In this document: piece by piece, positions 18,417 to 21,400 of the stretch | How positions within the stretch are numbered: the first letter of the stretch is position 1 | How the letters are laid out: each line of letters opens with the position of its first letter | From: Pseudomonas nunensis | GTDB taxonomy: Bacteria; Pseudomonadota; Gammaproteobacteria; Pseudomonadales; Pseudomonadaceae | Direction: 5' to 3' | Assembly: GCF_024296925.1 (NCBI RefSeq) | Contig: NZ_CP101125.1 | Coordinates: 2,172,501-2,236,500, forward strand | DNA length: 64,000 bases | The notes under the pieces: generated by a model | Database searches by the model: none | What the model was told of the DNA's origin: nothing | The model's input: the letters and a program-made list of their open reading frames with translations, nothing else | Position numbers and translations under genes: made by a program

Positions 18417-21400
18417 TTAAGCATCCTTGGAGACGATAGCGAGCAAGTCGCTTTCTGATAACGAAGCCAGTTCCCGCTCGAGATCGAGCAGCACTTCTGA
18501 CTCGTACAGCGCCAGTTGCAGGGTCGTGATGAGGTCGGCCAGTTCGCGCAGCGACGGGTGTTCGAACAACGCCTTGAGCGTGACGTCGACGCCGAAGTGT
18601 TCCCGGGCCCGCAGGGTCAGTTGCACCGCGATCAGGGAATGACCGCCCAACTCGAAGAAGTGGTCGTTGCGGCCGATGCGCTCAATGCCGAGCAGGTTGC
18701 TCCACAGCGCCGCGAGTTTCTGTTCGGTCTCGCCTTTGGGCGCTTCGTATTGCAGCGCTTCGGCGGCTTCGATTTCAGCGGCCTCACCGGTCAAGACTTC
18801 AAGCGTGCCATCCGCCAGCCAGCGGCCGAGATCGCCAGACTTGTAGAGGCGAGATTGCGGATCGGCGCTGAACGGATTGCTGATGAAGCGTTCGGTGCCG
18901 AGGTTTTTCGCACCACCGATATGGATTTCACCGGTGACACCGATAGGCGCCAACTGGCCGGCCGCGTCCAGCACATACAGGCGTGGCTCGCTGATGGACA
19001 GGTTGTGTTGCGCCAGCCACTCGGCATCCGGCGCGCTCTGGCTGAATTCAACCAACACCTTTTCGCGTTCTTGCGTCGGCAGTAAATCGAGTTGTGTGAG
19101 CAGAACATCCGGGGTGTTTGCCAGCGCCTGGGTCAGTTGCTCCAGGGCGCGCTGCATCATGTCGCAGATGCGCTGCGGGTTGATGCTCGGCGAGCACTGC
19201 ACGGTCAGGCCCAGGTCATGTTGGTAATCGTTGACCGACACCGTCAGCGGATAGTTGTCGCGCTCCGCTTCGGAAAGGATCCGCGCGCCCGGCCATTGCG
19301 TCGGCGCGGCGTCATCTTCGAGTTGATGGCGATAGTTGAACAGGCTACTGAACAGCGGCAGCGAGGCGGGCACCGCGCTGCAACGCTGGGCCAGGGCGAG
19401 TGAGGCCTGTTCGTGGGCGAGCAATTCGCTGAGGTCGCGGTGCGTCTCGGCGACCAGCGCATTGGCGCCCAATTGCGCCAGGTTCACCCGCACCGGCAGG
19501 GTGTTGATGAACACGCCCAGCGCCCGTTCTGCACCGGCCGAGCCTTGCAAACGACCCGACACCACGGTGCCGAACACCACGTCATCGCGACCGCTGCAAC
19601 GACCGATCAGCTGCGCCCAGGCCACATGGAACAGCACGGCCGGGGTGATGCCGCGTTCGCGAGCTTGGGCCCGGATCAGACGAGTCAGCCCGTCGTCGAA
19701 GCGCATGCTGACTTCTTCGACATCGCTGCCGTCGCCCTGCACATCGAGCAGGCCGAATGGCGCGGTGGGCTCGTCGATATCCGCCAACCGGCGCTGGAAG
19801 TATTCCTCGTCGGCTTCGATTGGCGTGGCAAGGATCTGCGCGACGAAATCCCGATAAGGCATCGGCGCGGTCAAGCTGTCGCCCTGGCCCTGGAGGATGG
19901 TCTGGATTTCTTCCAGCACGATTTCCAGGGTGACGTGGTCGCTGACCATATGGTGGTTGAGCAAGGCCAGCAGCCAGCGTTGGCTGTGCGGATCACGCCC
20001 GATGTAGGCGCGCAGCAGCGGCGCCTGGCTCAGGTCGATGCGCAATTGACGCGGGTCGCTGATGTTTTCCAGTTGCGCGAGGGCGTCGCTTTTTGGATCG
20101 AGCGTGACCGTGTGCACCGCCAGTTCGGCGTTGCGCTGCACGATTTGCACCGGTTCCGGCAAGCCATTCCATTGCACCGAAGTGCGCAGGATGTCGTGGC
20201 GATCAATGACCTGTTGTAGCGCCGCGACGAAGCGATCCAGGCCGCTGCGCTCATCGAACTCGATCATCGAGCGGATCAGGTACGCGTCGCCGGTATGGCC
20301 GAGCAAGTGGTGGAACAGAATGCCCTGTTGCAATGGTGCGAGGGGGTAGATGTCCTGGATATTGGCAATGCCACCGGGCACGTTGGCAACGATGGTGTCG
20401 ATCTGTGCTTGATCGAGTTCGATCAGCGGCAGCATCGGCGGGGTCAGTTGCGTAGTGTCCGGCAGGATCAGGTTTGGCGGCGCGTGGAAGATTTCCCGCG
20501 CATCACGGCCAATCGCCCGGGCCATTTCCCGCAGGCTCGGCGAGGCGAAGACCATGCGCACATCGGCACCGAGGCCGTGCTCACGCAGGCGATCGATCAG
20601 GGCCACGGCCATCAGCGAGTGACCGCCGAGTTCGAAGAAACGATCGTGGCGACCGACTTGTTCCAGGCCCAGCAGGTCCTGCCAGATACCGGCAATCACG
20701 GTTTCCACTTCACCCTGCGGCGCCTCGTAGGCACGGCTGGCGAACGCGTCGGCTCCCGGTGCCGGCAGGGCGCGGCGATCCAGTTTGCCGTTGGGCGTTA
20801 GCGGTAACACGTCGAGGTAAACAAACGCGCTCGGCACCATGTACTCGGGCAAATGCGCGAGTAATTCACTGCGCAGCAGTTCGGCGAGCACCGGTTCGCC
20901 GCACAGGTAGGCGACCAAGCGTGTGCTGTCGGATTGGCCGGGGCTGACCTCGCGGGCAATCACGGCGACGTCGCGCACACCTTCGCAACCGGCAAGCACG
21001 GCTTCGATTTCGCTGAGTTCGACACGGAAGCCACGGATTTTCACTTGATGGTCGTCGCGACCGAGGTATTCGAGAGTGCCGTCCGCCAGCCAGCGACCGA
21101 TGTCACCGGTCTTGTACAGGCGTGCCTCCGGCGTGGCGGCGAACGGATCGCTGATGAAACGCTCGGCGCTCAGCTCGGGTTGGTTCAGGTAGCCCCGGGC
21201 CACGCCGGTGCCGCCAATGTGAATCTCGCCGCGAACACCGATCGGCACCAGATGCCCGAGGGAATCCAGCACATGCAGCTGCATGTTCCTGATCGGTTTG
21301 CCGATGGGGATTGCCTGCTCCCGGTAAACGTCGAGGTCGGCGTCAACCGTTTGCCAGGCCACCACGTCGCTGCACTCGGTCGGGCCGTAGCTGTTGATCA

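Follow-up and report, generated by a model that had tools for sequence, protein, structure and literature searches.

The adenylation-less module 5 of the nunamycin synthetase and its possible loading by a sibling diaminobutyrate domain

In yersiniabactin biosynthesis the adenylation (A) domain of HMWP2 charges several carrier (T) domains, the substrate being Cys, which undergoes heterocyclization, and the carriers lying partly on another protein. Module 9 of the syringomycin line (SyrE, SyrB1, SyrB2 and SyrC) has no A domain and depends on a stand-alone A-T protein and a shuttle. A trans-iterative A domain has been demonstrated for capreomycin, where CmnA-A1 also charges CmnI of an A-less module (PMC12400406). 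Closest to the present case are the synthetases of nunamycin and, from the P. syringae complex, of pseudomycin-2, for which a 2022 paper reported the same organization, the first synthetase ending in a module that lacks an A domain (PMC9769872). Nunamycin was described with diaminobutyrate (Dab) at positions 2 and 5 and m/z 1138 (PMC6433849), and its structure is termed proposed in a figure legend of PMC4699791. We analyzed a 64,000-nucleotide stretch of the Pseudomonas nunensis genome (contig NZ_CP101125.1, positions 2,172,501 to 2,236,500; hereafter the window), which encodes a nine-position mycin line made of two non-ribosomal peptide synthetases (NRPSs), NunD and NunE. The absence of the module-5 A domain (A5) from the nunamycin synthetase is already published (PMC9769872) and is not new. 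Our analysis adds at least two losses of A5 as read from the tree, staged remnants, a Dab-type A2 domain in all five A-less clusters and the lack of a stand-alone Dab-type loader in the genome. The literature covered, mostly partial texts with the primary 2015 mBio description of nunamycin left out, did not say which domain charges position 5.

The window belongs to a single-contig genome of 7.33 Mb. All eight published primers for nunB1, nunB2, nunD and nunE (PMC5727362) matched it with 0 mismatches, and the products of 194, 162, 140 and 183 bp had the published sizes. The window is therefore the nunamycin cluster of P. nunensis In5 or of a very close strain, the first NRPS being NunD and the second NunE, and the locus shows no difference from that cluster. 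The two nupA primers matched with 3 and 1 mismatches at best, and the peptin gene extends past the window. Specificity codes (A3 and A4 read by eye) gave Ser, Dab, Gly and homoserine (Hse) for A1 to A4, none for module 5, Thr, Thr and Asp for A6 to A8 and Thr for the SyrB1-like protein, which is the nunamycin-type set. The A8 code, DMKDLGMVD, was assigned to Asp by position, and apart from Hse and His the codes carry meanings that we take to be established. Among these, DLEHNTTVS of A2 is presumably a Dab code, consistent with the Dab reported at nunamycin position 2, and we take DFWSVGMVH of NunB1 to be Thr-type. DLKNVGSDVK is named for Hse/Hsl domains in PMC12283262, where a His code is given as well.

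Module 5 of NunD was confirmed to consist of a condensation (C) domain, a linker and a T domain (C5-linker-T5), with the A-domain core and the C-terminal subdomain lost in frame. NunD is 4977 amino acids long without a stop codon and has five C, four AMP-binding and five T domains by Pfam; our own domain models gave the same counts in the order C-A-T four times, then C-(remnant)-T. The linker measures 104 residues, as against 521-534 in the 18 relatives read with A5 kept. TIGR01733 matched it only at profile positions 299-375 of 409 (E 2.9e-13, window 18792-18995), and by sequence it aligned to residues 352-426 of gramicidin synthetase 1 (1amu; E 1.1e-7). Since the two matches cover only these segments, the P-loop, the specificity pocket and the catalytic Lys are gone; in 1amu numbering we take the pocket to span 235-331 and the catalytic residue to be Lys517. 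Pfam AMP-binding was insignificant in the linker (E 0.071) and AMP-binding_C gave no match there at E up to 1, while at the corresponding place in the loci L001 and L002 AMP-binding_C was found with E values of 1.2e-10 and 1.1e-11, respectively. The T5 motif is intact, as is the HHMVSDH motif of C5, from which we presume a dual condensation/epimerization class. An AlphaFold model of the remnant with T5, built on a three-row alignment, had a mean predicted local distance difference test score of 40 and was of no use. A sequence-only reading of this DNA had proposed the in-frame loss at 18770-19005, which proved correct to within about 25 bases, and had rightly noted two A-less positions, 5 and 9, with a SyrB1/SyrB2/SyrC set present for the latter.

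To see how widespread the loss is, we examined relatives. In a sample of 398 genomes from the genus, a SyrB2 search gave matches in 39 at E <= 1e-60, and 24 of these, including the window's own, matched at >= 83% identity and were taken as mycin-type. For 22 of the 24 we could read the region of module 5 (in G294 and G333 it was not in the stretches examined) and Pseudomonas sp. dw_612 was added, giving 23 clusters. A5 was missing in five of them (the window, G327, G053, dw_612 and G018) and present in 18. Two wider searches with T5 plus its tail, in samples overlapping the first, matched 17 of 392 and 16 of 391 genomes and yielded no additional mycin cluster of the genus. A distant match at G461:C1:511846-512157, with 44% identity, lies in a frame of 2891 aa from outside the family and possibly belongs to a distant mycin-like line.

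The A-less clusters retain different amounts of the lost domain. In G327, G053 and dw_612 the linker is 198 residues long and keeps core motifs A6-A10 with A8 decayed, and in G053 the A10 lysine is lost too. Aligned to these, the window shows an extra in-frame loss of 94 residues, which leaves it with the shortest remnant within the nunamycin group (104 versus 198); because the three relatives retain the longer remnant, a further in-frame deletion in the window lineage is indicated. G018, which we take from its codes to be of the pseudomycin-2 type, has almost no remnant: its junction (L093) is a 26-residue linker with a scar like motif A8 (FIGRNDLKVKV), unlike the remnant of the nunamycin group. 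In a tree built on C5 plus T5 of all 23 clusters, G018 was sister to G369, in which A5 is intact (100/100), and the other four A-less clusters formed their own clade (100/100). When the A5 state was placed on this tree its starred branches forced two changes, and a single grouping of the five was rejected (approximately unbiased test, p-AU 1.3e-8). A5 thus appears to have been lost at least twice independently in mycin synthetases, on a tree built from the C5 and T5 segments of the first NRPS only, which recombination between modules could distort. G369 keeps an A5 whose Dab code is the same as that of its own A2. We also considered G140 (Ser-Dab-Gly-Hse-Dab, A5 intact) as a sister of the nunamycin group, and rejected it since the C5 plus T5 tree groups it with syringostatin-like clusters.

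We compared selection on the parts of module 5 by the ratio of nonsynonymous to synonymous substitution rates (dN/dS, Nei-Gojobori), using pairs within the nunamycin group. The values were 0.05-0.10 for C5 and 0.05-0.16 for T5 with the C-terminal tail. The remnant gave 0.16-0.26 for A6-A7 (six pairs) and 0.16-0.31 for A8-A10 (three pairs, window excluded), whereas the same motifs of the intact A2 gave 0.016-0.044 and 0.040-0.075 (six pairs each). The intact A3, with only three pairs, gave 0.06-0.11 and 0.03-0.08, and A4, with a single pair, gave 0.13 for A8-A10. The remnant thus seems relaxed though not free of constraint, and this combination of a relaxed remnant with constrained C5, T5 and tail is what is expected if the station works without an A domain.

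We read codes across the genome for domains that could load T5. TIGR01733 matched 67 times, 50 of them above the cut-off (amino-acid-type A domains), and all 50 codes were read, a few with a one-position gap. Three looked Dab-type, and the only one on the same chain as T5 was A2 of NunD; the other two were DLEHNTTVS in a 10317-aa peptin frame and DIWELTADD in a pyoverdine-type synthetase, both of which we take to mean Dab. A2 was Dab-type in 5 of 5 A-less clusters; among the clusters with A5 intact, A2 was read in 14 and was Dab-type in 4. The intact A5 domains, 18 in all, were themselves mostly His-type (14), with two Orn-type (G094, G394) and two Dab-type (G369, G140). The published mass was in agreement with Dab at position 5: of 128 residue-5, residue-7 and fatty-acid combinations that we computed, only Dab5 with dehydrobutyrine (Dhb) at position 7 and a dihydroxy-C14 chain had the nominal mass 1138 (1138.54). 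The sequence-only reading had given His or a basic residue for position 5 of related mycins, and His is indeed the common state in these counts. It saw no evident loader in the window, where NunD itself carries a Dab-type pocket in A2 and the published residue 5 of nunamycin is Dab (PMC6433849), and it treated as unreported a deletion that is in print for both nunamycin and pseudomycin-2 (PMC9769872). It was thus supported in part, for the domain loss, the A-less positions and His, and not for the loader or the novelty.

We infer that A2 of NunD serves two carriers directly, T2 and T5, and that module 5 is a working C-T station without a loader of its own; such direct sharing is the simplest account, and we put its probability at about 60%. 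A2 would charge the two carriers within one chain or between neighboring copies, C5 would join the tetrapeptidyl chain to the Dab on T5, and NunE would then continue. The loss of A5 would have been stepwise, with the N-terminal core (motifs A1-A5) going first, most simply in the common ancestor of the four nunamycin-type clusters, and the C-terminal subdomain going later in the window lineage. Module 5 has C and T and no A domain, as expected of a module served by a shared A domain. The arrangement would resemble that of capreomycin (PMC12400406) in that the T domain of an A-less module is charged with a diamino acid by the A domain of another module; it differs in that the capreomycin modules are on separate proteins and their loading was shown by intact-protein mass spectrometry, while A2 and T5 of NunD share one chain.

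Several observations weigh against this proposal. The association of A-less clusters with a Dab-type A2 is statistically weak because there were only two independent losses. The dN/dS of whole A2 was the lowest of A1-A4 in the nunamycin group (0.044), which is not diagnostic of double duty since it was also the lowest in an intact-A5 pair (0.059), and in the G018/G369 pair it was not the lowest. The nunamycin-group remnants had best matches of at most 62.5% identity, with no Dab-type domain among the top 12 for any of the four; because the remnant thus shows no particular affinity to Dab-type A domains, A5 before its loss was not necessarily of that type, and by these best 12 matches its origin was not traceable to any single A-domain type. 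Nor did T5 bear any particular resemblance to T2 as a sign of adaptation to A2, their 46.5% identity being the lowest value among the four in the window. The main result on this side concerns G018, whose A4 code, DAESVGTIV, we take to be Lys-type. Pseudomycin-2 differs from pseudomycin at position 5 and has published masses of 1262.65 (3-OH C16:0) and 1290.68 (3-OH C18:0), in assignments said to be supported by fragmentation (PMC9769872). By arithmetic, these masses with the published chains correspond to Lys at position 5, the residue of module 4 of G018 and not of A2, so that if this choice of Lys and C16 is right A4 would be the donor in that lineage. The masses are isobaric with Dab5 and chains two carbons longer (C18 and C20), and the same table lists a 3-OH C18:0 pseudomycin at 1262.65 (PMC9769872).

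It is on these masses, and on A4 adjoining module 5, that the leading alternative draws: another sibling A domain, chiefly A4, would load T5, or siblings would compete; residue 5 would then vary with the synthetase and might be a mixture. We consider this unlikely for nunamycin, whose A4 is Hse-type although residue 5 is reported as Dab; Hse5 with the dihydroxy-C14 chain predicts 1139.52 and not 1138, and for pseudomycin-2 Dab5 with the longer fatty acid fits equally. Both products could be brought together if T5 is an open socket, in an A-less state that recurs with at least two origins, filled by whichever sibling A domain reaches it (A2 with Dab in nunamycin, for which Dab is reported at positions 2 and 5, and A4 with Lys in pseudomycin-2), a view to which we give a low probability. 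A Dab-type domain of another synthetase charging T5 in trans is less likely again. The genome does hold two further Dab-type codes, in the peptin and pyoverdine-type synthetases, but these domains sit inside multimodular chains for other products, and A2 is nearer and has the same code as the peptin domain.

Loading by A2 could also be indirect, with A2 placing Dab on T2 and the SyrC-like NunC moving it to T5 in the way chlorothreonine is moved for position 9, a role of NunC that we presume from established knowledge of SyrC. We regard this as improbable, as SyrC serves mycins with an intact A5, such as syringomycin, too. The gene is present in the window, and in syringomycin biosynthesis SyrC carries Thr from one T domain to another (PMC8949500). 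A station that lacks a loader might simply be bypassed, giving an octapeptide; this is very improbable, given that nunamycin is reported with nine residues including Dab5, that the octapeptide with the dihydroxy-C14 chain is computed at 1038.48, that none of 16 octapeptide and chain combinations gave m/z 1138, and that the C5 and T5 motifs are kept under constraint. Supply of T5 by a stand-alone A or A-T protein elsewhere, which the sequence-only reading had suggested looking for, is no more probable than bypass. Position 9 works in this manner through SyrB1, and lines of the ramoplanin and enduracidin type make up for inactive A domains with stand-alone A-T proteins (PMC8949500). Genome-wide, however, only two A-domain proteins had no C domain, the Thr-type NunB1 and an A-T protein of 1146 aa whose code is DSIFMGLVL, so that among the 50 A domains above the TIGR01733 cut-off there was no stand-alone Dab-type loader, i.e., no separate A-T protein of the specificity that would make module 5 comparable to syringomycin module 9. 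Among the matches listed for G018, G327 and G053, each genome had one frame of 662-820 aa (SyrB1-like by size and place), the others being about 1100 aa or more. Collapse of a full A5 during assembly, to which repetitive NRPS modules can be prone, was rejected and is scarcely credible: the genome is a single contig, three more assemblies (G327, G053 and dw_612) lack the same core with another linker length, G018 is an independent case and the 2022 paper reports the same organization. Bypass and assembly error, both of which the sequence-only reading had named, are poor explanations.

The proposed loading of T5 by A2 would be one of what seem to be three ways in which mycin synthetases have come to place Dab at position 5, the others involving an A5 domain. 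In G140 (L117) the A5 core is 96.1% identical to that of its own A2, over a tract of ~1.5 kb with roughly 90% DNA identity that starts abruptly and falls to 62-70% and then 40% at the 3' end. This A5 is apparently a natural copy of A2 between modules, the direction of copying being presumed and the genome a draft. In G369 the two cores share only 62.5% identity, suggestive of a separate Dab-type A5. On the best reading the nunamycin synthetase would have reached the same residue through a shared A2.

The features of the line are given in the table.

Table. Features of the nunamycin assembly line in the window (position 1 is the first nucleotide of the 64,000)
Feature	Position	Strand	Basis
NunE, SyrE2-type NRPS; modules 6-9: C-C-A-T, C-A-T, C-A-T, C-T-thioesterase (TE)	4848..18413	minus	own domain models; nunE primers exact at 6234-6052; TE by eye
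NunD, SyrE1-type NRPS; modules 1-5: C-A-T x4, then C-remnant-T	18417..33350	minus	Pfam; own domain models; nunD quantitative PCR primers exact at 19353-19214
T5 carrier domain, FFELGGHS intact; phosphopantetheine Ser codon 18636-18638	18531..18746	minus	Pfam; motif
Module-5 A-domain remnant, core motifs A6-A7 only	18795..18992	minus	TIGR01733; 1amu alignment; alignment with relatives
C5 of NunD	19059..20369	minus	motif HHMVSDH intact
A4, Hse-type code DLKNVGSDV; rival candidate loader	21186..22214	minus	code reading
A2, Dab-type code DLEHNTTVS; proposed loader of T2 and T5	27615..28664	minus	code reading
SyrC-like protein of the alpha/beta-hydrolase fold (NunC by position); expected to shuttle between T domains for position 9	36401..37627	minus	
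NunB2, SyrB2-like halogenase, PhyH family	37645..38571	minus	family match; exact primers
NunB1, SyrB1-like A-T, code DFWSVGMVH; position-9 loader	38582..40513	minus	code; exact primers

NunE starts with two consecutive C domains (window 18281-15597), with HHIISDG in the first and HHLLADR in the second (motif compared in five). A link between this tandem and the A-less module 5 was considered and rejected, as all 17 second synthetases that were read have the C-C start, whether their lines keep A5 or not. A Cupin_8/JmjC-like oxygenase gene, possibly for a tailoring hydroxylase, lies on the plus strand at 33635-34651 between NunD and the nunB genes and adjoins a major facilitator superfamily exporter (34648-36012). 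At the start of the window a two-module NRPS (1-1892 and L126) runs off the edge there, beside a glycosyltransferase gene at 624-1892; its codes, DVWHLSLID and DVQFNAHVV, we take to be Ser-type and Pro-type, and the cluster presumably resembles the brabantamide type.

If A2 does serve both T2 and T5, nunamycin biosynthesis would offer a natural example in which two carriers of a single chain draw on the same A domain. Were T5 instead filled by whichever sibling reaches it, residue 5 could drift with its donor and no module-5 code would be needed. A shared A2 would also mean that lost-loader states evolve repeatedly, and peptide prediction from A domains should then allow for borrowing and not skip such modules.
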